A program made the translations under genes and the position numbers. This document shows, one piece after another, positions 4,574-61,491 of a DNA stretch of 64,000 nucleotides (the first letter of the stretch is position 1; every line of letters begins with the position of its first letter). Source of the stretch: Tomocerus qinae. Its lineage: Eukaryota > Arthropoda > Collembola > Entomobryomorpha > Tomoceridae. Below the pieces are notes generated by a model that saw nothing but the letters and a program-made list of their open reading frames with translations, did not search any database and was not told the origin of the DNA. The stretch is taken from NCBI GenBank assembly GCA_020055645.1, contig CM034547.1, positions 1,054,001-1,118,000 on the forward strand, in the 5' to 3' direction.

Positions 4574-7500
4574 CTGGAATTTGAACACATTTATATTATT
4601 TAGAAAGACAAAAATAATTGAAACGAGAGCGAGTTTCAACTTTCGGCATGTATTTTAATAAATGGGTTCAACTCCACAATTCTTATTGCAAATAATAATA
4701 GTGTGTAACTACCTGCATCTCCTCCTGAACATCGCCTTTTCCACTGGAGATATGAATGGGGCAAAACAGGGTTTTGTCTTCTAGGAGGGAACAACCAGCT
4801 TGGATTGAGCAAAGGAAGTGATAGGAATCGTGACAGGCAGAATGACAGCAGGAGACACTCGCTCCTTTCTTCCCACACAAAATACATTTCAAATTTTTAC
4901 TCCGCAGCAAAGCAGATCCGACCTATCCAAATAACATTAATTTGTATAACAATAAAATTAGTATCTAACTACTGCAAATCATTTAAATGACATGACGGCC
5001 AAGAGATTTCGCCAATAAAAAAATTCGCTGACACTAATTCGAGAACAAAGGTAAAATTAGACTTATACTTGAAGGCAGAGATCGGCACCGGTCGGCCAGT
5101 AATTGTGGCCGGGCCGCGTAGGCCACTGTTAGTTTTGGCTAGTGGCCGGCCGACCGACGAAGACTACTATTTTTATATTTCATATTACAAAATTTTAATC
5201 ATTTTCATTGATGGCCGGCCGGCGGTTCCTATGTGCCATACTGGCCGGCCGGAAAACCCACATGTACTTTACTCAGTGTTGTGCAATTGTTAAAACCACT
5301 AGTGGTTATAATGGTCATAATGGTTCGGTCAAAATACACTCAAAAGGCGGTCAAAATGGTCAAAATGGAGAAAATGCCTTTTTGGGGTTCATTGAAACCC
5401 CAAGGTAGCTTTTACTGCAACATAAAAAATGAATAATATAGCTTTCTAAAGATTGCAGTTAAAAATGATTTGAGAGTGTCATTTTGTAGTCTGATGTTAG
5501 TAGAATAGTGTTTTATTGGTTTTAGGCCATATTTCATTGTCTAAATTTTTTAAATTTTTACCAGTGGCCAGATCAAAATGCAAAAAAGGAGCAACTGTAC
5601 AACACTGACTTTACTGGCCAGCCGCAGGCCGATCGACGAAGGTATGATATAATTACTGGCCGTCGCAGGCCGGCCGAGAAAACTGTGATTTTAATTTTGA
5701 CGCACAAATTCATCTAGCCTATTGCATTTTGTGTTATATATTATCAATTTTAGGAATTGTTTTTGGATTGGAATAACTCCAGTGAAAATAGAATTTCAAT
5801 AAGTAGATTATAACAATTAGTAGAACTTGTGCTTATTCCATTATTATTTTTTGAACTTTTTTAGAGTATTAGGCCACCAGCACTGTCATTGAGTTATTTT
5901 TATTTCTTACCGAATTAAAGCTAAATAAAATTGTACGATTAAAGACCCTACGTGAAGTTCGATCGTAATTTTATTAAGCAGTGCTTCCCGAAGGCATCAC
6001 GTTGATAAATTATTGTAGTAGCTTCTGTCAGAGGCCGCCTTATCCACTTATGTTTAAAGATCTATAAAGAAAAGAAGCAACACTATCCCACGCGCGCCAT
6101 GATCACGTCATTGTTTTTAAAGCGTTTTTTGTCCAGTATTTGGGTAGGGTGGGTGTGATGCCTTCGGGAAGCACTGTTTAATAAAATTACGATCGAACTT
6201 CACGTAAGTTCGCTTATTCGTACAATTTTATGGCAGCAGTGCTTCCCTCTGCATCACGTTGATAAATAATTGTAGATGTTTAAAGAATATGCCAAGACAA
6301 AAAACTGAGCTGCGATAAAATTGAAAATTTAATTAGCATTCCAAGTTCAGGTTGACAATTAATTAGCGTAGCACAAAGTGTTAGTGATTATAACCCAAAA
6401 ACTGATCTAGTAAACTCATTATTTTTAATAACAGGTCGATTATAAAACTTTGTGAATACGGATGAAGAATTAGACCATCCCGCTGTCTTTCTAATTTGAT
6501 CTAAACTGATTCCATTTTTGAATGCCGCCGAAGTAGCGGCATGCCTACAACTATGAGACGAAAACATTTTTGTGTCAATTCCACTGTTATTTAATACATC
6601 TTTAACCCATTGACTTAAAGTTTGATTTCCTACTGGTTTATATGGCTTTACCAGACCAATAAACAGACTTTGACAATCATTCTTTCTCAAAGATTTAGTT
6701 CTACCTATATAGGCTATAAGACACATATACAAACAACATTCATGCTTTTCAGTCAATTTTGGAATGAATAACCGAGGTTGAACTCTACCAGGAGCCCTGG
6801 ATTTTATAAGATCCTTTATAAAAATTTCTATACAACTATCTTGGATGTGGATGTCATCCAATTTTATTTTAGAGAATGTCTGCATTCGATGTGCTGTTGC
6901 TAAGGCCATTAATGTAACACATTTAAATGACAAATCTTTAAATGACAATTGTTCATTTGGCAGCAGAGTACATATATAGTTTAGCACTACAGCAGGATCC
7001 CATGTACGGTCATATTTAGGAGTAGGAGGTCTCATTCTCGCTACTCCTTTTAATATTCTAGTTATAATTGGATGTAATCCTACTAAGTAACCATCGATAG
7101 GAAGTAAGATTAAAGAAAGTGCTGAACGTGCCGTATTCAAACTGCTGTAGCCAATCCCAGTTGAATATAAATAAGTGAAATAAGTAGAAAGTTGGGCCAA
7201 AGACGAAATAAATGGAGATTGCTTTTCATTGTTACAAAATTCTATCCATGATTTGTATGTTCCGTTGTACTGTGCCCATGTGGACACTGCTAAAGAGTTG
7301 GGTAGCATTTCGATTGAATTTTGGTCTAGTCCTCTGCGGACGTATCCTTTCCGGACAAAACTCAGGCCATCAGAGAAAGAGTATTGGACATGGGATGATT
7401 CCTGTTTAAATAAAACAGCAAATTAGGTTGAGGTGATATATAAGGCAATGTCCAACAGTCATTGACTTAAAAACTGGGTACCATGGTTGACATTTCCAGT

Positions 7501-13500: not shown

Positions 13501-16500
13501 CAAAATGTGTATTGTGTGCAAAGCCTCTGCCTTCTGCTTCTGGCCTTGTCCAACATACAATACAAGCAAAACAAGCGACTGTAGCGCCACAGACCAGAAT
13601 GTGACCGTTCTATGCGCCAGGAAATATAAACACACCAATCAAGATGATAAGTGGAGTGCAAGTTATAGGGTTCTACTGTATGATTTGTTTCATTATTATG
13701 TCCCCCACTTCCCACTTTCTGGTCTGTGTCTCTGATCCGCAATTATCCAACTAACGGGCTCGTTTACCGTTAGGCGGATCAGAGACACAGACCAGAAGTG
13801 GGAAGTGGGGGACATAACAAATCATACAGTAGAACACTATAACTTACACTCCTCTTATCATCTTGATTGGTGTGTTTATATTTCCTGGCGCATAGAACGG
13901 TCACATTCTGGTTTGTGGCGCTACAGTCACTTGTTTTGCTTGTATTGTATGTTGGACAAGGCCAGAAGCAGAAGGCAGCATAGAGATATAACATAGGTAG
14001 GTATTTATCAGGTGGCCCGATTGGTATCACGCCTGCGCCAGCTGGCCGTACATACCATCGGGAAGCAGTCCATAAGAAAAGAAGCCTCTTACTTATCCCC
14101 ATGTATTTTGTCCTAACTACAGAAATCAAGATTTAGGAGGGATTCCGCACCAAATCGCATTGACAAAATTTTTGTCGTTGGATGTGGAATGGCTTTGCTT
14201 TTTAGCTCGCCTGAGGAAGCGAGCTTATAGAACCGCACAGTCTGTCCGTCCGTCCCCACGACAACTTTCGAAAGCAAAGAATGATATTGACCAAACTTGG
14301 CAAAAACAATGCCTATGGTCCACTGACGATCCCTATTGAATTTGGGGTAAATCGGTGACCCATTGGTTGCTGAGAAACCGCGCGCTCACTTTGTCTTTAT
14401 TTTGATAGTCCAAGTGAAAATTTAGCATTAAGGTTTTACTTCAAACCTGCATAGCAACCACAGGGGACTATCAAAATGCATGTTAAAAAATCTTTTACAT
14501 CGACTACTATAACTTCCGGAGGATCAGTCTGATTTTTATGGGACCTACATTTTTGGAACCGTGGACTATCAAGGAACAAAAGTTGGCATTCGGAACTTTG
14601 ATATAGTTGCTTTAAATGGACCAAAAACCTCAACGTTTTATAAAAAACTAAAAAATGACACATATTTTTGGGAATTTGATATTTTTAAATGCATTTAAAA
14701 CAACTATATCAAAATTCCGAATGCCAACTTTTGTTCCTTGATAGTCCACGGTTCCAAAAATGTAGGTCCCATAAAAATCAGACTGATCCTCCGGAAGTTA
14801 TAGTAGTCGATGTAAAGATGTTACGATGAATTTTAAATGCATGGAGGTTGACCCGAATTGCTGTTGATGGAATACCGAGGGCATAAGTCAATGCAATTCC
14901 AAAAAATTAGTTTCTAGGAAACGGGGAAGTGTATTATATTATAAAGATTTCTATACTGACTTGTAGTAGCATTTCCACCTGTCGTCATTGGCAATGTTAT
15001 TACTTTAGTACAAAATATTTTTTGTTTGCATTTTTCTCCGATGCATTCATACTTGTATAAGTTTAAGTTATAACCATGGTTGTTGTTGTTATAACTACTA
15101 TCAAGGATGTCTATTGTCCATGTGACATAAACGGCCGTCAAGTACAAGCATTGACGCCGTAGTCATAGTGATATAGTACTAACCAAAGTACTAACCAATA
15201 GATTTACAAATACTGACGGCCGTTTATGTCGCATGGAATTCATTTTGTTATTGACTTGATAGCATCTTGTTTATCAATATTGAACTGCCAAAACTTTTCC
15301 TTGAGGTAGTGGAATAGCCGGGTAGGTTAACTATGGGGTTTCGGATGTGACAATTGACGGGATAAATTTTGGAAATTATATTTATTTCGTTAGCAACCAA
15401 CGTAAACTGTGTCCTTAAATGGACATTAAAAAGTTCAATGGCGTTTCCTATAAATTGTTGGCGAGATAGTATAAAATATTTCAATCTGCTTCTACCAAAT
15501 TTGAGATTTTATAATAAAGCAAATAAAACCAAAAAATCACTATTAGAAAACGGAAATAAATCTATTTTGGATTTATATTCAATTTTATAGTCAAACTTGC
15601 AATTTTCCAATTTCTATTGATAATTAATATTTACCGATAATTTCTCCATAGATTTTCATTGTCAACATTAATCAATTTTGATTTTCTTTCGACTTTTATA
15701 CTCAATATTAATCAATTTTTATTTTCTGTTGATTTTAATAGTCAACATTAATCAATTTTGATTTTGACTTGATTTTATACTTACCATTAATCAATTTTGA
15801 TTTTGACTTGATTTTATACTTAACATTAATCAATTTTGATTTTGACTTGATTTTATACTTAACATTAATCAATTTTGATTTTGACTTGATTTTATACTTA
15901 ACATTAATCAATTTTAGCTCGCCTGAATAGGCAGCTTATAGAATCGCACAGTCCGTCCGTCCGTCCGTCCGTCCGTGCGTCCGTCCGTGCGTCCGTTTAC
16001 ACGATAACTTTTGAAGACATTGATGGATTTCAACTAAACTTGGCAAAAACATTGCCTATGGACCTGTGACAAAGCCTATTGAAAATGGGCCACATTGGTC
16101 AATAGTTTGCTGAGATGCCGCGTGCTCACTTTGTCTTCATTTTAATAGTCAAAATGAAAATGTGACATTAAATGGACATTAAAAGTTCAAATGTGCTTCC
16201 TATGGATTGTTAGCGGGATAGTACAAAATATTAAATGCCGCTTCGACAAAATTTAAGATTTTATAATAAATTCAATAAAACTGGAAAATACCTATTATAG
16301 GACGAAAATAAATCTATTTCGCATTTATAAGCAAATAGATAGTTAAATTTATATTTTTCGAATTGCTTTCCATTATGATAGCCAACATTAATCAATTTTG
16401 ATTTTCTGTTGATTTTCATACTCAACATTAATAAATTTTGATTTTATGTTGCTTTTCATAGTCAACATGATTAAATTTTGATTTTGTTGCCTTTCATAGT

Positions 16501-19500
16501 CAACATTAATAAATTTTGATTTTCTGTTGCTTTTCATAGTCAACATTAATCAATTTTGATTTTCTGTTGATTTCCATATTCAACATTAATAAATTTTGAT
16601 TTTCTATAGATTTTCATAGTCAACAATTATCTATTTTGATCTTCTGTTGATTTTCATTGTCAGGATTAATCTATTTTGAGTTTCTGTTGATTTTTATAGT
16701 CAACGTTAATCTGCTTTGATTTTCTATTGACTTTGATGGTCAACATTCATACATTTTGACTTTGATACTCAATATTATCCAATAAATATGAAAATACACC
16801 TGTTTCTATTATTCTATTAAAACTGTGTACACGGTCCCCTTCACTCAGGCGAGCTTCTGTTACGGCTTGCCGTAGGTTTTTATTTATGTTAATTTGCATA
16901 GTCAAAATTAATCAATTTTGATTTTATATTGATTTTCATAGCCAAAATTAATTAAATTTGATTTTATGTTGATTTCCATAGTTAAAATTAATAAATTTTG
17001 AATTTCTGTTAATTTTCATAGTCAAAATTAATAAATTTTGATTTTCTGTTGATTTTCAGTGTCAACAATAATCAATTTTGATTTTCTGTTAATTATCATA
17101 GTCAACATCAATTTTGATTTCGGTTGATTTTCATAGTCAACATTCATCAATGTTGCTTTTCGGTTGATTTTTATATTCAACATTAATCAATGTTGCTTTT
17201 CGGTTGATTTTGATATTCAACATTAATCAATTTTGATTTTCTGTTGATTTGAATAAATGATTTGATAGCTAGAAGATAGAAGATTTGAATAGCTCCTACC
17301 ATTCAAAAGTTATCGTGCATGCGGATAACCACACAGACAGACATACAGACAGAAAGTGTATTCCTATACAAAGGAGATGAAATTCTCTGAATAACGCAAT
17401 GTAGTTGTTTTATTGTCTACAATTACCATTAATTAACTATGTCTATTCCGACAAGAAAGTCTGTCGTGTGCCGTGTGTCGCCGCCTAAGAAATACATTTG
17501 GTGTGTTGTGTTAGTTATTGGCTTTCGATGACATTGCTGAGACAAAGCAAAATACTCGGGTACGAAAAAGCTGAGGCTATAAGCTGTCTGTTGGAGGCGG
17601 GGACTGTAAAACTAATTCAAGTGCCTTCGAATAAATTCGAGTGCCTTCGAATAAATTCGAGTGCCTTCGAATAAATTCGAGTGCCTTCGAATAAATTCGA
17701 GTGCCTTCGAATAAATTCGATTGCCTTTGAATAAATTCGAGTGCCTTCGAATAAATTCGAGTGCCTTCGAATAAAATCGAGTACCTCCGAAGAAATTCGA
17801 GTACCTCCGAAGAAATTCGAGTACCTCCGAATAATTCGAGAAATTTACACATTTAACCAAACAGCGAAATTAAATGTTTGAAGTCCTTTCATTAGCGCCT
17901 GATTTTCATTATATCATTACACACCATCATTGTAAATAGACGTAATTTTATATAATCACGTCGTTTTAAATCCCACCGTCCTTTTAAATAACCCCGTCAT
18001 TTTCAATAACCCCGTCATTTTAAATAACCCCATCGTTTTCAATAATCCCGTCCTTTTAAATAACCCCAAGCTTTTAAATAACCCCGTCATTTTAAATAAC
18101 CCCGTCATTTTAAATAACCCCAAGCTTTTAAATAACCCCGTCATTTTAAATAACCCCGTCATTTTAAATAATCCCGTCATTTTAAATAACCCCGTCATTT
18201 TCAATAACCCTGTCATTTTCAATAACGCTGTCATTTTCAATAATCTCGTCATTTTCAATAACCCGGTCGTTTTAAATCCCACCGTTTTTGAATAACCCAG
18301 TGATTTTAAATAACCCGGTCGTTTCCAATAACCCCGTCCTTTTAAATAACCCCGTCATTTTCAATAATCTCGTCATTTTCAATAATCCCGTCCTTTTAAA
18401 TAACCACTTTAAATAACCCCGTCATTTTTAATAACCCAGTTATTTTCAATAATCTCGTCATATCAATAATCTCGTCATATCAATAATCTCGTCATATCAA
18501 TAATCTCGTCATATCAATAATCTCGTCATATCAATAATCTCGTCATATCAATAATCTCGTCATATCAATAATCTCGTCATTTTCAATAATCTCGTCATTT
18601 TCAATAATCTCGTCATTTTCAATAATCTCGTCATTTTCAATAATCTCGTCATTTTCAATAACCCTGTCATTTTCAATAACCCTGTCATTTTCAATAACCC
18701 TGTCATTTTCAATAAACCTGTCATTTTCAATAACCCTGTCATTGTCAATAACCCTGTCATTTTCAATAACCCTGTCATTTTACAATAACCCTGTCATTTT
18801 CAATAACCCTGTCATTATCAATAACCCTGTCATTTTCAATAACCCTGTCATTTTCAATAACCCTGTCATTTTCAATAACCCTGTCATTTTCAATAACCCT
18901 GTCATTTTCAATAATCCCGTCATTTTAAACAGCCCCGTCATTTTAATCAACCTCTTTATTTTAAACGTGTCCGTTATTTTAATTAACCCATTTTAATCTT
19001 CCTCGTTATTTAGTTTTAATCTATCTCGTCATTTTAATTAAACGTGTTATTTTAATCTTCCTCGTTATTTGACTTTAATCTATCCCGTCACTTTAATTAA
19101 ACAGGTTATTTTAATTACCCCTTTTATGTTAATTGTTTCAATTAGTTTATTTTAAATCATGAATGATTCGACAGATATTCAAAGATGAAAACAGAAGAAC
19201 CAAAAAATCTATTGTTTCACCTCATGTTTATTGAAACTAAACTGTTCGTTTTCGCAGCCCCAACAACGGAGCAGGTGTAGGTGTAGCTAAAGCTGAAGGG
19301 AAAGAGAACATGCGCCACCTATATCAGCCATGGTCGCACTTACAGTGCGTAGTCACTGTAGCCCCTTAAACACGGAGAAGCACGAATGGATAATTGGATT
19401 TTCAAAATTCAATTTAAAATCGTAGAATCAAAATAACAAAAATCCGCTACTTGAGGACCACAGTATTGGTCCTTAGAAGCGTCAAAAAAAATTTGATTGT

Positions 19501-25900: not shown

Positions 25901-28900
25901 TCATCTGCAGTACTTTTCAAATTCAGCACAGACAGGCAGACATAGGAAAACCTAAATTTTCCTAAAAAAGAAAATTGTAATATTTTCCAAAGTCAAGAGC
26001 AAAATGCCAACTGTCTGTGCAGTTTATGACTGCAAAGCTAATAAAAAGAAAAATCCAGAACTAATATTTCATAGATTTCCGTCTAAACCAGCCCTTGTGC
26101 AGGTTTGGAGAACAAAATGTCGGCGGCTAGAGAGATCTTTTATAGCAAAAATGCGTATGTCTGCTCCACACATTTTCAACTGGCGGATTACGCAAGAGAT
26201 TTGAAAAGGGAGTTGTTGGGACTTCCTCAACAGAAAAAATTGCTACCCGATGCAGTTCCTAATGTTTTTATGGATCGGAATGCTTTGATGGTACACTCTA
26301 CAGAAGAACCACCGACGCAGACTACCAAGGATGCTGCTGTTAGTGCAAGAAAGGAACGTATTAGCATTAGAAATCGAAAGCGTCTAGTCGAGGACTTACT
26401 AATGGAAGCCCTACCCGAACACGAATGTTAGTTAGCAGTTGTAGCATAACAATAATAATAAAAATTTACGTTTTCTCATTTTAAAAATATGATGTTATCA
26501 ACAGTGGACGAGGACCAACTTAATAAACCTACGGAAGAAGACTTGAATCGAAAATTGGAGGAATTGCAATTGCAAATCACTATGCAAAAGGGGAAGTTAT
26601 GCAAGCAGTCTAAGATTATAATTTATTTGAGGAAAAAAATTGCAAATATCAAAAAATCCACAAAAGTCCATTGCCGTCATTCCACTAAGAGTATTTTCAG
26701 CAAGGCACAAAAGAAAGTCATTCAGGGACAGAAAAGAGTAAACTGGAGTAACAAAGATATAATAAAGGCACTATCTGTTAGAAGCATTTCACTTAAAGCT
26801 TACGAAACTATACGTGAAAAGTGGCAAATACCGCTGCCTTGTCCTCGTACTCTAAGACTATGGATTCATCGTTTTGAATGTGCTCCAGGAATCCAATATG
26901 ATATACTAAATATCAAGGCAGAACTCGGATCGGAATTAGAAGTCGTGAAAAAACTATGTGTTTTATCTTTTGACGAAATTAGCATTAATTCAAATTACGT
27001 GCAGGACAAAACGTTTGACTGCATAATATCTCATTCTAAGGCACAAGTTGTAATGATTCGGGGACTGTATGATCCATGGAAGCAACCAATATACTTCAAG
27101 TTTGACACGCCTATGACAAAACCTGAACTACTGGATGTAATCAAGGAAGTATCAGATGCCAATTATCAAGTAGTTTCAATTGTCTGTGATTTAGGTGGAG
27201 AAAACAGGGCGTTGAGAAAAGATTTTGGAATATCTGGAGAAAATGTCAGTTTCCCTCATCCAACTGATGATACACAGGAAATTTTTGTGTTTGCTTGTAC
27301 TCCCCATCTCATAAAATTGCTGAGAAACCATCTCGTTGATGATGGAGTACAATTGGCAGACGGGACAATAATTAACCGTAAAACATTGGAGGGAAAGAAT
27401 TTGTTAAACTACGTCTTAAAGTACGAGTCAAGCGTTTAAACCTTAAGAAGCCACGTTTTGCAAACATAAATTTTAAAAAGAAAAAGCAGTTTGCTCAAAG
27501 TTCGGTATAAAGTTGTGAATTTTGTGAAGTAGCAGGTTATAAATATGTATGATGATTTGATGATGTTGTTTTATTAAGAATATTCGGTATATTAAATTAA
27601 ACTTTTTATGTGTGAATATGAATGCAGATGTGTGATTCCATTTCCGTACTTAGCAGACCTCCAAGTGTACAAAAGTTTTAAGTGCAGGAATACACATACC
27701 TAACTAGTTTAAGCTTTTATTAGAAATGTATAATAGTAATCTTAATGTAACAAGCTAACAGTTACAGCATTATATCGACATATTTACGATAAGAAGGGGC
27801 ATAAGCAAAGACACGTTACGAAACGAAAATCATTTTAACAGATACTTTGCTAAAGTAGGTATAGAAGGAGATAATGTTATTGCAATGCAGGATGCTTAAT
27901 AATGTGTGTGAGCTACCAGAACAAATACTTTATGGCGATACTCTGAAATAGATTCCATTATTTCGTATAAAAAAAGTCGTATGTGCAGAAAATCACTATT
28001 CACTTTCATTTAAATCTTTCCCTCCTTTCCCGAAAAGTACTGCAGATGACGTCACTTTCCCAATAGCAACAAAATATGATTATTTACCTTTCCTTCTGTA
28101 TTCTAGGTTCTTTGATATCATCCTATACATTTTATATACTACATGAAACGTGAAAATAAAAAATCGTATAGTTGTATTGTATCTGCACTCTATAAAAACC
28201 CTTACAAACAAATCTTTGATCTTTGACCCCTGTTAATAAGTGATGCAATTTTCCGCTGAACTATTCAATAATATACGAAAGAAGGTGACGACGACATTAA
28301 AATATGAAGTAGTATTGCTAGTGTTTTATTATATTATTGTTATTTGTATTTGTCCTACTTATGTTTAATGCAATAAAAATACAATTTATTAATATTTTTT
28401 ACAAAGCCTCCATTTTATGCATATTACTTACGAATGTATATTGCTAATATATATTGTTTTACAAAATTAGCACATCCAGTTGTGCCAGTGCAATGAGTGC
28501 AAGTCCTTTTATGAACACAGACCGGAAAAGTAGCCGGAAACAATCAAAACGTTTGATAAAACCAAACCGAAGTATTCAAAACTTACTAATTTTAAAAGTA
28601 ATACCCTTTCCGGTCTCTGACATAGTAGTCATTTCATTAATAAAGTTAGTTAAATATAATACTTCGTGCGTGATAAGGTAAGACGCCACAGCTATAAAAT
28701 AATTCAACCGATCGGCTCTGTGCACAGAGCCGATCGGTTGAATTATTTTATAGTTGCGTGCTGCTGCGTGCATGTAACGAACGCGTTCTAAGTGCTAAAT
28801 TGGTACAGGCATGTAAAAGTAATATATCTTTTGACGGTCAAATATATCTTTTGTAGTCTACTTGCCAATATACCGAACCAGAAAATCTCTAGATTTGTAA

Positions 28901-38550: not shown

Positions 38551-39426
38551 TTTTAGCTCGCCTGAATAAGGCAGCTTATAGAACCGCACAGTCTGTCCGT
38601 ACGTCCGTACGTCCGTCCGTACGTCCGTCCGTCCCCACGATAACTTTCGAAAGCAATGACGGATATTGACCAAACTTGGCAAAAACAATGCCTATGGACC
38701 ACTGACGATCCCTATTGAATTGGGGGTAAATCGGTCCATTGGTTCTTGAGATACCGCGCGCTCACTTTGTCTTCATTTTGATAGTCAAAATGAAAATTTG
38801 GGATTAAATGGACATTAAAAAGTTGAATGGCGTTTCCTATAAATTGTTAGCGAGATAGTATAATATATTTCAATCCGCTTCTACCAAATTTAAGATTTTA
38901 TAATAAAACAAATTAAACCGGAAAATAACTATTAGACGATGGAAAAAAAATTCCTTTAAATTTTGATAATCATTATTAACCGATTTTAATTTTTTGTAGA
39001 TTTTAATACTCATAACCAATCAAGATTGAATATCTGTTGATTTTCATAATCAACATTAATCAATTTCGATTTTCTGTCGATTTTCATAATCAACATTAAT
39101 CAATTTCGATTTTCTGTTGATTTTCATAATCAACATTAATCCATTTTAATATTCTGTTGATTTTCATAGTCAACATTTATCTATTTTGATTTTCTGTTGA
39201 TTATGATAATCGATATCAATCAATTTTGATTATGTGTTGTTTTTAATACTCAATATTAATCAATTTTGATTTGCTATTGATTTTGATAATCAACATCAAT
39301 CTATTTTGATTTGATATATTTTGATCAAAATAAATTTATTTCTGTTATTGTTAGATTACAACCAAAATGTGCACACGGTCCCCTTTACTCAGGCGAGCTT
39401 CTGTTACGGCTTGCTGTAGGTTTTTA
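38551..39426 (+). mobile_element. HINE-like element, complete copy with identifiable empty site
   Basis: AGCTCGCCTGAATAAGG to TTACGGCTTGCTGTAGG with eight or so 40-bp units. Left flank CTGCCTTTT, right flank TTTTTAACGTTAGG. The opposite palindrome arm at 39,527-39,550 reads CCTAACGTTAAAAAGGCAG, the uninterrupted site. Confidence 0.88.
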
Positions 39427-47570: not shown

Positions 47571-48888
47571 TTTTAGCTCGCCTGAATAAGGCAGCTTATA
47601 GAACCGCACAGTCTGTCCGTACGTCCGTCCGTACCCACGATAACTTTCGAAAGCAATGACGGATATAGACCAAACTTGGCAAAAACAATGCCTATGGACC
47701 ACTGACGATCCCTTTTGATTTTGGGGTAAATCGGTCCATAGGTTGCTGAGATACCGCGCGCTCACTTTGTCTTCATTTTGATAGTTAAAGTGAAAAATGG
47801 GCATTGAAAGTTGTAATACCGTTTCCTATAGATTGTTAGCGGGATAGTATAAACTATATCATGCCGCTTCTACTAAAACTGAAATTATATAGTAAAATAA
47901 CTAAAACGGAAAACTACCTTTAAAAGTAAAATAACGAATCTGTTTCAAGTTTGTCTTGATTTTAACAGTCAATATTAATATTTTCATTATGTATTGACTT
48001 TGATAGTCAATATTAATAAATTTTCATTATGTATTGACTTTGATAGTCAATATTAATATATTTTCATTACGATTGACTTTGATAGTCAATATTAATATAT
48101 TTTCATTATTTATTGACTTTGATAGTGACTATTAAAATATTTTCATTATGTATTGACTTTGATAGTCAATATTAATATATTTTCATTATGTATTGACTTT
48201 TATAGTCAATATTAGTATATTTTCATTATGTATTGACTTTGATAGTCAATATTAATATATTTTCTGATGCATTGATCTTGATAGTCGATATTAATATATT
48301 TTGATTTTGTTTTGATTTTGATAGTCAATATTAATCAATTTTGATTTTCTGTTGATTTTCATAGTCGATATTAATATATTTTGATTTTGTTTTGATTTTG
48401 ATAGTCAATATTAATCAATTATTGTTTTTCTGTTGATTTTCATAGTCAACATTTATCAATTTTGATTTTCTATTGATTTTCATTGTCAACATTAATCAAT
48501 TTTGATTTTCTTTTAATTTTCATATTCAAAATTAATCAATTTTGATTTTCTGTTGATTTTCATAGTCAACATTAATCAATTTTGATTTTCTGTTAATTTT
48601 CATAGTCAACATTAATCAATTTTGATTTTCTGTTGATTTTCATAGTCAACGTTAATCAACTTTGATTTTTTGTTGATTTTTCAAATAACACAGCTTCGTT
48701 TCCCTATAATATCAATGTCTGAATTTTTAATATGTCATAGCTACATATATAAAGACCAAATTCTGAAAGTTTAATCAAAATCCGTACGCTCGGTTTTGTG
48801 CTGTGTGCGAGTACTTTTTGTCTACCAAAATGTGTACATGTTAACCTTTAATCAGGCGAGCTTCTGTTACGGCTTGCTGTAGGTTTTT
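47571..48888 (+). mobile_element. HINE-like element, longest copy
   Basis: Starts TTTTAGCTCGCCTGAATAAG and ends CAGGCGAGCTTCTGTTACGG, then CTTGCTGTAGG. About 17 minisatellite units of 40 bp fall in two sub-families: ATTGACTTTGATAGTCAAT (48,000-48,300) and GTTGATTTTCATAGTCAAC (48,330-48,680). Confidence 0.85.
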
Positions 48889-48987
48889 AATAATGTACCC
48901 CAAAGCATACCTTGCTGCGTTATTGCTAAGCTATTAACTCTTGCCATGAAGGTATGCTTTGGGGTACATGAGTGAAAACGTTAATTG
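48889..48987. mobile_element. MITE family with TTAATGTTTTC ends, copy 3
   Basis: AATAATGTACCCCAAAGCAT at the left and ATGCTTTGGGGTACAT at the right. It lies directly against the 3' end of the HINE-like copy. Confidence 0.7.
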
Positions 48988-52214: not shown

Positions 52215-52541
52215 AAGTAATCACGAGCTATAGCTAGCTACCATTTATGACGAATTCGTTTTAAACGTAAGTAATACCCCTTATTTTATTTTACTTTTCA
52301 CATATTTTACATTTCAGTCCTCCCATTGACGTTAACAGTTTTACTCAACGGTAAAATTCCTCAATTATTTTACCTCAGTTGTTATTCCATCACTCATCAT
52401 CATACTCTACTTTGACTCACTGACAATAATTACCAAAATAATTTTTCCTTTTGAATGCAGATCATGCCCAAATTAAAAAAGAAGAGTGTACAACAAAACC
52501 TGCAAGAAGACCTAGAGAGAAAGAAACATGCGAAAACAGAA
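52215..52541 (+). mobile_element. Helitron-like element fragment, copy A, interrupted
   Basis: Direct counterpart of 61,492-61,796. A leader about 250 bp long is followed by an ATG at 52,464 and MPKLKKKSVQQNLQEDLERK. The reading frame is cut by the HINE-like 3' end at about 52,541. Confidence 0.6.
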
Positions 52542-52947
52542 AACGTACGGCAAGCCGTAACAGAAGCTCGCCTGAGTAAAGGGGACCGTGTACACAGTTT
52601 TAGTAAAATAATAGAAATAGGTTTATTTTCATATTTATTGGTTAATATTGAGTATCAAAATCAAAATGTATGAATGTTGACCATCAAAGTCAATAGAAAA
52701 TCAAAATAGGTTAATGTTGACTATGAAAATCAACAGAAAATCAAAATAGATTAAGATTGATGTTGAAAATCAACAGAAACTCAAAATAGATAATTGTTGA
52801 CTATGAAAATCAACAGAAAATCAAAGTAGATAATTGTTGAGTATGAAAATCAGCAGAAAATCAAAATAGGTAGTTGCTGACTATGAAAATCTACAGAAAA
52901 TCAAAATATATAATTGAATACTTGATTTCTAAAAGTACTTATTTCAA

Positions 52948-53316
52948 AAACCTACAGCAAGCCGTAACAGAAGCTCGCCTGAGAAAAGGGGACCGTGAAT
53001 AATAGAAATTGGTTCATTTTGATATTTATTGATAACATTGAGTATCAAAATAGATGAATGTTGACCATCCAAAAAAATGGTAAATCAAAGTAGATAAACG
53101 TTGATTATGAAAATCGACAGAAAATAAAAATGTTGACACACAAATCAAAATTGAATAATGTTGATTATCAAAATCAACAGAAAATCAAAATTGATTAATG
53201 TTGATTATCAAAATCAACAGCAAATCAAAATCGATTAATGTTGATTATCAAAATCAACAGAAAATCAAAATCGATTAATGTTGTATATCAAAATTCCTTA
53301 TTGAGGTGAGCTAAAA
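52948..53316 (-). mobile_element. HINE-like short copy inside the transposon
   Basis: Begins AACCTACAGCAAGCCGTAAC, then GAAGCTCGCCTGAGAAAAGG, followed by about five minisatellite units, and ends GGTGAGCTAAAA. The conserved block is deleted. Confidence 0.7.
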
Positions 53317-53821
53317 CGCCTGTGTACTGTGTACAATAATGGATTAATATTGTCTACCAAATGAAATCGTCATTCTTTGTTAAACAAAAGCACATCTAAA
53401 TTTTCAATTTAATCTTTCGTACCCTCATTTTTCGACAGCTGGAACTGGAAGCAGTTTTAACAAACAAAAAATTGCATTATTGTTCTTACTATTGCAAAAA
53501 GTCTAATTTAGAAACACTCAAATGTTTTTATTACCATTTTTAATGTCCACTAACAGGATCAGTTTTAAGTAGAAACGTTTATTGCGACTGTAAAATTACC
53601 TATTAAAGTAGGTTGGTTGAATATGTTAACCAATAATTTGACAATTAATACTACATTAATCCAAGTTATATAAGAGCAAAAATTCATGTTTGACAAGCAT
53701 ACAGATTTATTTTGGTCTGTGTTTTATAACCATTACAAATATTTCAACAAGTTTTCAATAAAAGGGGCATTATGGCAATCAACAGTAACACCGAAGATTA
53801 AATAACATGAGAGTGCGATTC

Positions 53822-54128
53822 TATATAGCTCGTCAGGCGAGCTAAAACCTACAGGACAAGTTTTCAATAAAAGCGGCATTATTTATGGCAATCAACAGTA
53901 ATACCGAAGATTAAATAACATATTTTTTCGGTTGTTATTTGCGAACCGTTGGACATATTTTGTCAACAATCAATAGGGATCGTCACAAGCCCATAGACAA
54001 CGTTTTTGCCAAGTTTGGTTAAATTCCGTCAATTCCTTCGGGAGTTATCGTGGGGACAAACTTGGTGTAGTTTCATCGCGCGGACGGACAGACTGTGCGA
54101 TTCTATATAGCTCGTCAGGCGAGCTAAA
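53822..54128 (-). mobile_element. HINE-like 5' fragment inside the transposon
   Basis: Ends CGGACGGACAGACTGTGCGA, then TCAGGCGAGCTAAAAA. It carries a diverged conserved block (TTGCCAAGTTTGGT). A partial duplicate of its terminus (TCGTCAGGCGAGCTAAAA) stands at 53,829-53,850. Confidence 0.65.
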
Positions 54129-54367
54129 AATCCTCTGTCTCCGGGGAGACAGTTAAAATGACAATATTGTCATGTGACGACAAATGCCGACAGTCATCCC
54201 AAGTTGACCCGCGTGAAAACCATAAAATGCTACTGCTTCAAATTTTTAAAATATCTTCATCTTCATTGTCATTGAAATTATACTGCTATATCAATATCAT
54301 TGTCATCATCTGCCATTCTGCTTCATTCTTGTGTATAAAACCGAAGGAACAAATAAAAAGGTTCAAA

Positions 54368-56417
54368 ATGGCAGAAAGAGATTTCCGCCCAAAGAAAATA
54401 GTAAGAAATGAAGCCAACTGGAGAAAATATGTCACCAAACGACTCAAAGCAGAAGGTATTAGCCATAATAGTCTAGTTCTACCTTCTACCTAACCTAAGT
54501 AATGGCATTAGATTTTGTATTAAAAAATCATTGATATTATGCCATATTTAAATTTGACTTCAGGAGTTCGACATTTACGCTATGATGGAGTGACTATCAA
54601 ACCAGAGCGAGCATTAAATGATGATGACTGTCGACACCACTGTCGAAACGAAATTACTTATGAGGAGAAAAACTGGGTATTCCAAAAGTTCAATAGATTG
54701 GCAAATCATGAACTTCAGAACACTTCAGAACACTTTCTTGGCATTCACGGTATAAAAATAACTCGGTTGCGACGCAAGGTACTTTCTAAAAAAATTCAAC
54801 TATATAAAGTACTAAAAATTAGAATTTCTCATTTTCGCTAATTAAATGCTGTTTGTTTTAAATTATCAATCCTAAGGTTTTAAGACCAGACCTAATGATC
54901 ACAGATGGTAGAGGAAAACATGGACACCATAAAACTACCGAAGAGAATATACTTAACCAAGTAAGAAATTTCCTGAAAGAGTTACCTTCAAGAGAAAGTC
55001 ACTATTCAAGAGAAAGAAATCCTAATAAAAGGTATTTGGAATCCAACGAAACTATCAAATCTCTCTACAATAACTTTGTAGCAAGAAATCCAAACGCTAG
55101 AAATAACCAACCACTAATTCAGTATTGGCAATTCAGAAACATTTTCAACCATGAGTTTAATATCAGTTTTGGATTTCCCCGTTCTGATGTATGCGAAGTT
55201 TGCGATCTGTTTCATGCCAAAATTACCGAAATTGGGGTGAATGGAAATGATAATGAGGAATTTGAAGTGCGCTTAGCACAACAGTTTCATTGGTCGGAAG
55301 CGGAAGCTTTTATTTCAAGAATGAACAAGAATATCCTAGATGAATACGATGCATCTCATGCATTTATCTGCTTCGACTACGAGAAAAATTAAGCCTTCCC
55401 AATAACAAATATAGGAAAAGAATTTTTCTTGCGACAGATGTGGTTATTCATATATGTTTGTGTATCCTGAAAACTTTGCGAAGAAATCGTCGAATGAAAC
55501 AGTTTCCTTCATAAAATATTATGTAGAAAATTTCGTACCTGCCGAAGTGAGAAGCATTCACTTGTTTGCTGACAACAACTTTGGTCAAAATAAAAATCGC
55601 TATTTGATGACATACCTCATTAGTTTGGTACCTGAAAAGTTCGATAACATATATTTCCACTTTCCACTACCTGGACATTCGCGCATGCAATGTGATGCCG
55701 ACTTTGCCATTATTGAAAAGAAAAAGCGAAAGGTAGACCGAATACACTTTCCAATACAATGGGTAAACGTGATAAAGCAAGCTAGACCGGCAAACCCATT
55801 TAGTGTATTTTACGTAGAATATTCACCAACAAATGGATTGACACCTGATTGTCCAATTTATTGACACCTGAATTGACACCTGATTGGGACCAATTGTCCC
55901 AGTATACAACTTTAAATCAGCCCTTGATGATATCCTACGTCCTCCACAACATATAAATGATATTAGAAGTCTGCATATCGACTTGACAAATAGAGGAATC
56001 AGAGTGAGAGTTAATCATGAAGTTGAGTACGGTACATGGCACCATTTTAATTTTCTAAAACGTGGCATTGATTACGGAATTTTGAAAACTAAAATCCAAA
56101 CTGTGCAAAGAGCTTACAATGGTTATTTACCTATTTCGGCTGCTAAGTACGAAAATGTGCAGTATCTCTTAAGTACCTTTTACAGAGAACCGGAGGATAT
56201 ATTCTACGAGTCACTAGATTTTGACGCAGACGATGTCCCTGAAGAAGTTTTGAACATCATTGAAGAATTACCTCCAGACCCTACCTTCAACTTCGATTTT
56301 CTGGATTTAGAACTTCAAATTCAGAACGCTGCTCATGTGGAAAATCCCCCGCCGTACCTAATAAATATAATTGAGGAATTCTCAGACCCTAATTTCGACA
56401 TCTCATTCCTTAATTAG
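54368..56417 (+). pseudogene. DUF7869-like putative DDE transposase, three broken points
   Basis: Exon 1 54,368-54,455 (MAERDFRPKKI), exon 2 54,564-54,778 (DDDCRHHCRNEITYEEKNW), exon 3 from 54,877; both introns are GT-AG with agreeing phase. The body shows DGRGKHGHH, ESHYSRERN, FGFPRSDVCEVCD, FICFDYEKN, FADNNFGQNKNRYL and PLPGHSRMQCDADFAIIEKK. The C-terminal YNGYLPISAAKYENVQYL follows. These match, from memory, a family common in arthropod genomes (often labelled DUF7869), with a plausible DDE set (FD, AD, IE). Damage: an in-frame TAA at 55,390, a frameshift before 55,454, and a short TTGACACCTGATTG duplication at about 55,850 that shifts frame again. Confidence 0.7.
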
Positions 56418-56479
56418 TCACAAAATTCTGTGAATTGTAATTTATACAGAGTTGAGAACATCCAATTCTATGAGTTTTA

Positions 56480-59400
56480 ATTTTTAAATACTTTGTACTA
56501 CATATTGTACAATCACCTCAATCATTGTATTGAGAGAGTTGATATGGCGAGTGGTGTGTGCGTGCTTTTTTGGTGCTCTCTGTTTTCTGGTTTTGGCGTG
56601 ACTAAATCTGTGACCTTAGAGTCAAGATTACATCTAAAATGTGAGTTTTTTGACAGTGTTTTTTGTAGTGCAGATTGCAATTGGTGTCGTTTCCCTACAA
56701 TTGGAAATTTTTCGTTTTTCGTTTTTGGAAATACGGTGCTGTCGAACATTTTAGAAAGTCAGGTCTTCAAGCAAACCAATTCCGTCATTTACTTATCACA
56801 TTATGCAGATAGTAATATACATGGACACTTTGAGCCAATACCAAATAAGTACACAACAACATTGTGTGATAGTACACTTACATTTGTTTATATCTGCTTA
56901 ATAATCAAGCCTGCATTATCTCGCATTATCTCCATACCTTGTCCTTCCTTATTTTGGGTTCACTTCAAACGTCTAAACTACTATAAAAAAGTGCTGCTAT
57001 GTTTATGTACTTACGTATACCTAATCACTAACAACTCACCGAGGCCTAAAAGTTTAATACTCCTATACATACTTATGAGTGGAGTGAATTCATTGAACCC
57101 AGGACCTATTTGTACTTTGTGTCCAACCGGAAATAACAAAATTAGAAAAAATCAACTAAGTATAAGTTGTGTCCAATGCACAAAACTGTATCATAAAACG
57201 TGTCTCAAAATATCCTCATAATATGGTGAATTTAATGCACTATGCTTATCTAAAACCTGGAAATGTGAAACCTGTGTTAATGATGTTTTATGCACTATAT
57301 GCAACACTCAAAAGAAGAAGTGGATAATACTAAGATGTATGAAATGTAACCTATATTCACACAGAGCTTGCCTATCAAATACCGGGCTTCTCAATGCAAA
57401 ATTAGAGAAAGATTGGATATGCTCTGATTGTAAGGATATAACAAATAATTCTGTGACATCGGTCCACTCCTGTTCATCACCTCAAATAGTACCAAACTTA
57501 TCACGAAAATTATCCAAAGGTATTCGAATAGCTCATGTGAATGTTAGGGACATTAATTCTAAAAGCAAAAAAGACGATATCAAAATGCTGTTAGATGATT
57601 ATAGCTTTGATATATTAGCAATAACCGAAACATGGCTAAATTCAACCCATACGGACAACGAATATTTCGTACCAGGTTACCAACTAGTAAGGAAAGATCG
57701 TCCAACACACGCTGGGGGAATTCTTGTCTACATCAAAGATACATACGAAGTCGATATTTGTGATACGGATATTAAACACCCAACGGAGACTCTAAAAATG
57801 AAAGTGAGACAAAAGTTCCTTAAACCTATAAATATTATTGTTATATATCGCCCTGAAAACCCTCCATCGTCCTTTTTGAATCAACTTGAAAATGAGCTAT
57901 ATAAAAGCAAAGATGAGCTATATATAATAGGAGACATAAATATTGACATGCTTAAAATTTTCAACCCCACTACCCGTAAGCTAAACACTGTGTTAGCACA
58001 TAATAATTTCTCTCAGTTGATAAAGAAGCCAACTCGACGTACACATAACTCAGAATCTTTAATTGATCTGGTCATATGCAATAAAACTGAATTAGTAAGT
58101 GAGTGTGGTAATATTGTTACTGGAATTGCTGATCATGACATTATTTATGTGATTCGAAAAAAGCAGAGAAATCGACACGTAGTTCAAACGAAAGCTATTC
58201 GTTCTTATAAAAATGTTAACATTGACGACCTTAAAAAATCAATTCGTGAATGCCCGTGGTGGTCTCTAGAATACTGTGTGAACATTGATTGTGCTTTCTA
58301 CCTATTTAACTATTTTCTAACATTTGTTTTTCAAAATTTGGTCCCTGAAAAACTGATCCGAATAAAAATTAACAAACCAATTTGGATGAACAACGAATAC
58401 AAAAGTATTTGTAGACAACGAGATAAGATGAAGAAAATAGCTAACAAATCTAAAGAACTAAAAGTGGGGAAAGAGTACCGTAAAATACGCAATCAGGCGA
58501 ATAGAAAAAAAGACCAACTTAAAAGTAAGCTCATTTTGGATGAAATAAATAACAGTGATAGTAAATCTAAAAAGTCATGGGCCCTTTTGAATAGTGAAAG
58601 TGGACGTAAAATTACTAATACCAATACAATACCATCTTTAAAATGTGGCGAGGAAATAATACATGATGAGAGAAAAGTTGCTAATATCTTTTCCAAAGTT
58701 TTTGTGTTACCTGAAGTGACTACAGCATCAACACCTGCGAACGATGATGATTTTCTTGCAACTGTACCTGAGAGCTGCATCTCAACTGTAACGTTTTCCA
58801 ATGAAGAAGTAAAAAGAGCAATACTTTCCAACGCTATCAACAAACCTCCAGGGATTGACGGATTACCAGCTAAATTTTTGAATATGATTTCGGAAGAAAT
58901 AACCCCAGTACTTACTCAACTTTTAAATGTTTCTGTGATCTGCGGTACATTTCCTAAATTATATAAGGAAGCGATCGTGGTGCCGCTATATAAAGGAAAA
59001 GGTGCAAAAACTGATGCTGGTAACTACCGACCAATTTCCATTTTATGTGCCACATCGAAAATAATAGAAAACTTAGTATATCAGAAAATAAAGACAAGTG
59101 TGATTTTTGCAAATACGCTCTCTCCGTACCAACACGGATTTAGAAAAGGCTATTCGACACTCACGGCTATTGCTCGGCTAACCAACGACATTTTTAAAGC
59201 TGGAGACGATAGAAAGTACACTGTGGCAGTTTTTTGTGACTACCGTAAGGCCTTCGATTCCCCATTGATTCAAAACTTTTATTCAAAACTATTGAATGTG
59301 GGAATAACAGGAAATGTGAATAGATGGCTCATGTCCTATTTAAGTGACCGAAAAATAAGGGTTAAGGTAGGAAATACACTTTCTGATGATTTTTTATTAA

Positions 59401-60550
59401 AACGTGGGACGCCACAGGGAAGCTGCCTATCAGGACTTCTCTTCAGTATTTACATAAATGAGATCCCCAACCTATTTATTTTTTGTCGAAGTGTTCTCTA
59501 TTGTGACGACTTGGTGTTATACTTCTCATCGAAAACACTATCAGAGGCAGCAGTTTTCACTCAAATGGATCTCAACGCGCTAATTGTTTGGGGAAATGAA
59601 AACGGTTTAGAGCTTAATCCAGATAAAACTAAAGTAATGGTATTTTCTCCGAGTAACATGAAAAAACCCGAGAAAGTGAACATTACAGTTGGAATGTACT
59701 TAATTGAACAAGTTAATACATTTAAGTACCTAGGTGTACACTTAGAAGAGCATTTACTATGGAACACGCATGCTGACTTTGTGTACTCTAACATGAATGC
59801 TAGACTTAAGCTTATCTGTAGATGTAAACGGTTTTATACTAAAAAACAAGTCATTATGTTCATTGATTCTTTAATGTTATCAATAATGGACTACTGCCTT
59901 CCAATATGGGGTAACGTCTGCATTTCTAAAGTTGATAAAATTAACAATCTTGTATTTAAATCAGTGAAAATGTTATCTAACTATAAAACTAGAAATACTA
60001 ATTCTAAATTATTTAGCTTACTAGAAGAAGCAAATATGATGACTATGAATGAAAGATATGAACTTTACTGCCTAAAGTTTATATATAAATATGTTGTTTG
60101 CGGAAAACTTTACCTTGCTGTGGACATTAAAATGGACTACCAAAAAATCCAAAGTAAACGTGAATTGAGAAGCAAAAAGAATTTAGAAACTCCATTGCTA
60201 AAAGGTTTTGGTAGAAATGCTTTTTGTTATCGAAGTACTCAATTTTGGAACAATTTACCTTTAAACATTCAAAGCTGTGAATCGTATGAAGTATTTGAGA
60301 AACTAGTTAGGGAAAAAATCATAAGTAGAAGAAACACTTAATCTCTGACATGGTGTAAACGATGATATAACCGATGTTAATCTTAGAAAATGAAATGCTG
60401 TTTTCTGATGATACTTACAATATTACGTAATAATCACTACTATATTACTTCTTTTCCGTTTTAACTTTACTAGATGTAGAATGACCATGACTGGAAGATA
60501 ACTTGTTGTAAAACTGTTATTCGTTTGTCAATAAATCAAATCAAAATCAC
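56480..60550 (+). mobile_element. CR1-like non-LTR retrotransposon (LINE), near full length
   Basis: Single large reading frame followed by a 200-bp 3' region ending in the simple repeat AATAAATCAAATCAAAATCA. It lies just downstream of the transposase-like pseudogene in the same orientation and within the 7.8 kb transposon. The 5' border is not defined. Confidence 0.8.
56493..60341 (+). pseudogene. LINE ORF2: NPGP motif, PHD fingers, AP endonuclease, reverse transcriptase; one in-frame stop
   Basis: Both open segments share one frame and are separated only by TAA at 57,219-57,221, which falls inside the Cys-rich region. Order: hydrophobic lead ending MSGVNSLNPGP (2A-like), PHD-type Cys/His pattern (CTLC, CVQC, H-x2-C, CETC, CTIC, CMKC). 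The endonuclease has HVNVRDI, ITETWL, GDINIDML and ADHDI. The RT has FCDYRKAFDS (motif A), RGTPQGSCLSGLLFSIYIN (motif B) and LYCDDLVLYF (motif C). A thumb and a C-terminal Cys-poor tail end RSTQFWNNLP. This architecture is that of CR1/L2-group LINEs. Motif C is YCDD where YADD is usual. Confidence 0.88.
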
Positions 60551-61491
60551 CATATTAGCAACGAAATTGTTTAAAAATTTTAATAGTATACGGTATATTG
60601 CAATTGGGATTCGGGTGTTTACTGATGAATGTTATGCTGAGTTACTGTTCAATAAAAAAACTATTTTGTTTGTTGTTGAAATAAGTACTTTTAGAACTCA
60701 AGCATTCAATTGTTGAATATGAAAATCAACAGAAAGTCAAAATTGATTAATGTTGACTATGAAAATCAACAGAAAATCAAAATTGATTAATGTTGACTAT
60801 GAAAAGCAACAGAAAATCAAAATTTATTAATGTTGACTATGAAAATCAACAGAAAATCAAAATTGATTAATGTTGGCTATCATAATGAAAAGCAATTCGA
60901 AAAATATAAATTTAACCATCTGTTTGCATATAAATGCGGAATAGATTTATTTCCGTCCTATAATAGGTATTTCCCGGTTTTATTTACTTTATTATAAAAT
61001 CTTAAATTTGGTCGAAGCGGCATTTAATACTTTGTACTATCCCGCTAACAATCCATAGGAAGCACATTTGAACTTTTAATGTCCATTTAATGCCACATTT
61101 TCATTTTGACTATCAAAATGAAGACAAAGTGAGCGCCCGTCATCTCAGCAACCTATGGACCAATGTGGCCCATTTTCAATAGGCTTTGTCCTATGGTCAT
61201 AGGAAATGTTTTTGACAAGTTTGATCAAAATCGGTCAATGCGTTCGAAAGTTATCGTGGTAACATACGAACGGACGGACGGACGGACGGACTGTGCGATT
61301 CTATAAGCTGCCTTATCAGGCGAGCTAAAAAAGATAGTGATTGTTTAAAGTTTCAATTACTGGAAGAAGATGCATCAAACGAAAAGCCTATAGATTGGCG
61401 TGATTAGTCATCCACATTTCAACAGGTCTCTACTCCCCATGATCTCTACTTCACTTTGGGTACTTTACTTCGACTAAACTATCTCGTTGAA

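Follow-up and report, generated by a model that had tools for sequence, protein, structure and literature searches.

Does a gene whose product carries a protein domain of unknown function, and which lies between two inverted repeats in the collembolan Tomocerus qinae, encode the transposase of the element that these repeats delimit, and to which group of transposons would such an element belong? The question arises from a preliminary description of a 64,000-bp stretch of genomic DNA (GC content 0.355, with introns and a retrotransposon that mark it as eukaryotic; hereafter referred to as the window), in which a DNA transposon with definable ends was delineated at positions 52916-60707 and linked to the Pfam domain DUF7869 (PF25273).

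The ends of this element proved to be as described. The two 32-bp terminal inverted repeats (TIRs) agree at 30 of 32 positions (34 of 36 when the adjoining AATT is included) and enclose, together with all inserted DNA, 7792 bp (Table 1). With up to three mismatches allowed, the 21-nt core of the TIR was found exactly twice in the 64 kb, while 0.02 occurrences were expected from 100 shuffles. AATT is palindromic, so that the ends and the duplication could be confused with each other. The 4-bp AATT duplication is nevertheless well supported, because removal of the element and of one AATT joins the flanks into one 40-bp minisatellite unit whose phase is exactly restored, and which matches two upstream units (52790 and 52830) that read ATAATTGTTG at equal phase. 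Members of the same 40-bp minisatellite family are present outside both ends of the transposon, inside it, and elsewhere in the window, and one might therefore suppose that the inverted ends and the AATT sequences arose by chance or through recombination within the surrounding minisatellite. We find this hardly credible in view of the rarity of the TIR core, and because the inner minisatellite array is part of a separate element with a start and an end of its own.

This separate element (copy B) and the one that served as the target of the transposon (copy A) belong to a dispersed, minisatellite-bearing family in which both the start (AAAACCTAC..GCTCGCCTGA) and the end (TCAGGCGAGCTAAAA) are constant, and further copies of which are located in the window at positions 14204-17252, 38555-39425, and 47575-48898. 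By its layout, the family can be likened to the Helitron2 group as portrayed in the accessible text of PMC3627910; both possess an asymmetric, short inverted repeat close to the start and at the end. Copy A is split at 52916-60711 by the transposon and its duplications. Copy B begins where the left TIR ends on its inner side, its start overlapping the last base of this repeat, and contains its own 40-bp minisatellite (53142-53294); it has two successive 3' ends (at about 53847 and 54129), as if two units had been joined. Further downstream, a non-LTR retrotransposon is bordered by AATCACC repeats (56511-56517 and 60545-60551), a candidate 7-bp duplication. Its 1000-amino-acid open frame (57339-60341) is intact, a TAA codon is found ahead of it at 57219, and its matches to an endonuclease domain and, in the N-terminal part, to a PHD domain remained below the curated Pfam cut-offs. 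What had been taken for a self-contained 7.8-kb element hence holds two nested insertions of about 1.18 kb (copy B) and 4.03 kb (retrotransposon), which leave about 2576 bp (2.58 kb) of its own sequence. Apart from these elements, the window contains an open frame (26489-27439) with P-element-type transposase domains (TNP-like RNase H N-terminal, E=6.1e-13; Tnp_P_element, 5.1e-5) and, on the minus strand, a tyrosine recombinase open frame (6388-7308; Phage_integrase, E=3.3e-13) that we take to be possibly part of a DIRS/Ngaro-type element.

Table 1. Coordinates of the transposon, its gene, its target, and the elements nested within it.
Feature	Position in the window	Strand	Basis or remark
Copy A, Helitron2-like element, target of the transposon	52540..61330	+	Start and end motifs common to other copies in the window
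Left target-site duplication (AATT)	52912..52915	.	Minisatellite phase restored
Left TIR	52916..52947	+	30/32 matches with right TIR
Copy B, Helitron2-like element nested in the transposon	about 52948..54129	+	Shared start and end motifs
Exon 1, DUF7869 transposase gene	54368..54455	+	Reading frame, GT donor
Exon 2, DUF7869 transposase gene	54564..54778	+	AG/GT borders; aligned to bacterial proteins, alone E=0.25
Exon 3, DUF7869 transposase gene, with DUF7869 domain	54877..56417	+	Matches to Pfam PF25273 and bacterial profile
Presumed catalytic D1 codon (FDYEKN)	55375..55377	+	Alignment with bacterial HYSWDFAQQ
Presumed catalytic D2 codon (ADNNFGQNKN)	55571..55573	+	Alignment
Presumed catalytic D3 codon (GHSRMQCD)	55694..55696	+	Alignment with bacterial GHTKFSPD
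Nested non-LTR retrotransposon	56518..60544	+	RVT_1, E=1.2e-33; in the 3' untranslated part
Right TIR	60676..60707	-	Pairs with left TIR
Right target-site duplication (AATT)	60708..60711	.	

The gene between the TIRs comprises, as previously proposed, three exons separated by introns with GT..AG borders, and it is broken three times, each time in exon 3: by a TAA codon at 55390, by a change of frame near 55441, and by a frame-breaking short repeat at 55836-55886. A piece of exon 3 (55415-55861) matches DUF7869 with an E-value of 5.8e-9 and a score of 36.2 bits, the curated Pfam cut-off being 26 bits. A profile built from eight bacterial proteins recognized pieces of the gene with E-values of 2.9e-15 and 1.3e-8 (search space set to 1000); exon 2 by itself did not reach significance with this profile, and the last piece of the gene was unmatched. 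The gene has no further significant relative among 1056 stop-to-stop frames of the window (next best E=0.9). In the window, the link between gene and ends has a single copy as its basis. This copy is dead, since it has suffered two nested insertions and three breaks in its reading frame. The suggestion that it is young finds no support, as two mismatches between the TIRs do not provide a date.

A broader basis for the protein was found in bacteria. We scanned a prokaryotic genome collection for DNA coding for DNxxGQNKN and obtained 106 loci, ten of which gave tblastn matches at E<=1e-5 and an eleventh (L012) at 0.001; the remaining 95 were taken for chance matches to the pattern and dropped. 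Stop-to-stop frames of 635-668 codons are present at seven bacterial loci. One intact DUF7869 frame (L032) resides in Desulfocicer vacuolatum DSM 3385, a genome that is not labeled as a metagenome bin in its record; the other bacterial relatives include bins, and contamination is possible there. Both bacterial proteins that we ran against Pfam exceed the curated cut-off for DUF7869 as the exon-3 piece does (E=2.8e-18 and 5.4e-23; 66.6 and 82 bits), while NCBIfam holds no model for these two. For the alignment (A2), eight of the 11 relatives were used; L012, L051, and L083 were left out as partial, and L102 is open at the start of its contig. Searches arranged by order, class, and phylum recovered relatives in 12 of 389, 1 of 369, and 1 of 295 genomes, respectively, counts that include the genomes of the seeds themselves (five of the 12 at the level of the order, and both single ones at the levels of class and phylum), and several of the others are short fragments. 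In a phylogenetic tree, the window row sits on a very long branch (10), which is uninformative on the direction of transfer.

No relative was detected in viral contigs with two pieces of the window protein, a motif, the TIR, or the bacterial alignment as queries; two exact matches to the TIR core in such contigs lie in one shared, unrelated context and were discarded. Likewise, tblastn revealed no relative in phages (window piece and L032 as queries) or in plasmids (L032 as query), and searches by sequence of the PDB, PHROGs, and NCBIfam returned nothing useful. Of five frames in the neighborhood of L032 that were run on Pfam, two encode integrase-core domains and one is weakly AraC-like. At L032 (4065-4595), the Desulfocicer element starts at the end of one such integrase-core (rve) frame and possibly interrupts an older insertion sequence; the rest of the rve frame was not recognized downstream of the element.

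From the motif FADNNFGQNKN and an IEK motif, the gene product had been described as compatible with a DDE nuclease. The alignment with the bacterial proteins agrees with a DDE/D-type transposase, but not with a catalytic role of the IEK glutamate, at whose position seven of the eight bacterial rows have a K and one has an R. Three aspartates (D366, D445, and D487), on the other hand, are invariant in all eight bacterial rows, and an aspartate is present at each of the aligned positions of the window protein (Table 1). As judged from this alignment, the catalytic acids would accordingly form a D-D-D triad.

The model of the whole L032 protein is of moderate quality (pLDDT 67.9). A model of its core (233 residues; pLDDT 82, pTM 0.83), for which an 11-row alignment including one window row was supplied, has a predicted succession of three strands, helix, strand, helix, strand, and helix, which is the order of the RNase H fold. 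D1 (residue 11) is placed within predicted strand 1 (5-19) and D2 (residue 90) directly behind strand 4 (84-89). D3 (residue 132) follows strand 5 in a loop modeled with low confidence (block mean 56); in the whole-protein model, this residue (D487) falls into a helix (486-496) within a stretch under pLDDT 50. The proposed comparison with RNase H-like transposases therefore held for the order of the fold and for the placement of D1 and D2, but Foldseek returned no match at E<=0.001 with either model. The best E-values were 1.6e-3 for the core (an Argonaute) and 2.5e-3 for the whole protein (TnsB of a V-K CAST), and TM-scores over the query reached at most 0.38 for the core among the matches listed. 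These comprise Argonaute/PIWI proteins, Mos1, UvrC, and NurA, all of which we take to be RNase H-like proteins, and a few others; with the whole-protein model, the matches also include TnsB, Mos1, Hermes, and a few unrelated chains. The weak matches to the mariner transposase Mos1 (5hoo, 4u7b, 3hos; E=7.0e-3 and 1.1e-2) point to a likeness in the RNase H-like catalytic core, with 10-13% sequence identity in the fold alignment. Mariner elements duplicate TA according to the accessible text of PMC10741241, whereas the window element duplicates AATT.

The bacterial genes, too, are bordered by inverted repeats. Such repeats, 30-61 bp in length, were found on either side of the gene at six of the seven loci with a whole gene, and they were not found around the gene at the seventh (L022) or around those of two distant relatives with long frames (L121 and L122). 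When the end of the element is placed at GGGG or GGCG, the left and right flanks read AAAT/AAAT (L010), AAAT/ATTT (L032), ATAT/ATGT (L066), AATT/AATT (L076), ATAT/ATTT (L092), and ATAT/ATTT (L108). Eleven of the 12 flanks of these six complete elements conform to AWWT, compared with 3.5-5.6% expected from composition. An exact 4-bp duplication is seen in two of the six, which is about the expectation for two random AWWT flanks; a duplication is consequently supported in the window only. A search of 11 genomes with the end pattern yielded 12 matches, against two for a reversed control; flanks were read for 11 of these 12, L137 being left out. In two genomes (G046 and G080), eight more ends were matched, and five of their seven flanks (ATAT, ATAT, ATAT, AATT, ATTT, AGTT, and ACTT) are of the AWWT type, AGTT and ACTT being the exceptions. 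One and the same right end is found in G046 in three contexts (flanks ATAT, ATAT, and AATT). Two of these three copies (L140 and L141) have an identical internal deletion but different flanks, which suggests a mobilized and apparently non-autonomous deletion derivative of a DUF7869 element.

The bacterial elements share with the window element the homologous protein, inverted ends beside the gene, and AWWT flanks, but they are intronless, and their GGGG or GGCG ends are unlike the window TIR save for AAAA at position 16. An equal distance of 15 nt from the end to this AAAA run had raised the idea that the ends are homologous; this idea was dropped when a matrix of 13 bacterial ends (22 columns) ranked the left and right window ends only 8825th and 9957th among 127958 positions, and lower still with 26 or 32 columns. 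This dissimilarity, and the fact that two other elements have settled within 52916-60707, would fit a scenario in which the TIRs stem from another transposon, the DUF7869 gene having been carried along as a passenger or inserted separately, like the retrotransposon and the Helitron2-like element. We regard such a scenario as very improbable: the gene (54368-56417) fills most of the sequence that is left without the nested elements, and at the six bacterial loci a homologous gene fills most of the space between inverted repeats, again with AWWT flanks. The proposed tie between the DUF7869 transposase, the TIRs, and a 4-bp duplication is supported, and it is strengthened by the bacterial inverted repeats and by the RNase H-like predicted core.

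Collectively, these data suggest that DUF7869 is a DDD transposase with bacterial relatives, and that the window element is probably a decayed, cut-and-paste jumping gene of an ordinary kind. The Sola superfamily, reportedly founded by Bao et al. in 2009, offers the closest description. In the accessible texts, Sola elements are characterized by a DDD transposase, a 4-bp target-site duplication, an occurrence in bacteria and metazoans, TIRs of 11-1124 bp, and a size of mostly 2-9 kb (PMC10741241), and Sola2-type elements of two slime molds by AT-rich AWWT duplications (PMC3627910). The window element corresponds to this in its predicted catalytic DDD residues, its AATT duplication at an AWWT target, its 32-bp TIR, and its size with or without the inserts, and DUF7869 elements have in common with Sola, as compared by description, a host range of bacteria and eukaryotes. 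We therefore assign the element, with a probability of roughly 0.75, to the Sola superfamily, most likely as a Sola2-type transposon; the label rests on described features, since no Sola reference sequence was compared. Counted in its favor were the TIRs with AATT and the restored minisatellite, the DUF7869 match, the intact bacterial proteins, the bacterial inverted ends with AWWT flanks, the right end that recurs in G046, the invariant aspartates, the core model, and the PDB matches. Counted against it were the missing likeness between the TIR and the bacterial ends, the exact duplications in only two of six elements, the AGTT and ACTT flanks, the loci without inverted repeats (L022, L121, and L122), the Foldseek scores, the low-confidence stretch around D3, and the single copy in the window.

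DUF7869 elements might instead constitute a DDD superfamily in its own right, present in bacteria and eukaryotes and similar to Sola in triad and target without belonging to it. The comparison with Sola by description rather than by sequence leaves room for this, and neither DUF7869 nor PF25273 was mentioned in the literature searched, a body of text that lay outside Repbase and most subscription papers; the absence of an NCBIfam model for the two bacterial proteins points in the same direction. Such a separate standing appears unlikely to us, given that the window element exhibits the Sola features in triad, target, TIR, size, and host range, and that a superfamily whose subgroups Sola1, Sola2, and Sola3 are distinct from each other in Repbase (accessible text of PMC4455052) could well include a divergent member. 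An extended version, in which a separate AWWT-targeting DDD superfamily spans several bacterial phyla and eukaryotes and includes a bacterial insertion-sequence family that still moves and mobilizes deletion derivatives, we hold to be doubtful. Under the Sola assignment, the window element probably adds to an already known group, whereas the definition of a new one had been anticipated, and the useful result is the assignment of DUF7869 as a transposase.

In the sequence of events that we envisage, the single gene would give rise to a transposase whose catalytic domain (DUF7869) is RNase H-like and carries a D-D-D triad. Binding of this enzyme to the two 32-bp ends would be followed by excision of the element and its joining to an AWWT site through 4-bp staggered cuts, which would generate the AATT duplication. 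The transposon inserted into copy A, an older Helitron2-like element, within its minisatellite. Later, a second Helitron2-like element and the retrotransposon inserted into the transposon, and its reading frame was broken three times.

Pfam lists PF25273 simply as a domain of unknown function, and it is linked here, in a eukaryote and in bacteria, to a transposase-like triad, exact transposon ends, and a target site. Annotators could hence class DUF7869 genes as belonging to transposons and not to their hosts, and the compact, intron-free bacterial versions are on offer for biochemistry. If DUF7869 elements are Sola transposons, this superfamily would gain a link to Pfam as well as bacterial copies whose ends are defined; otherwise, they would represent a new superfamily.
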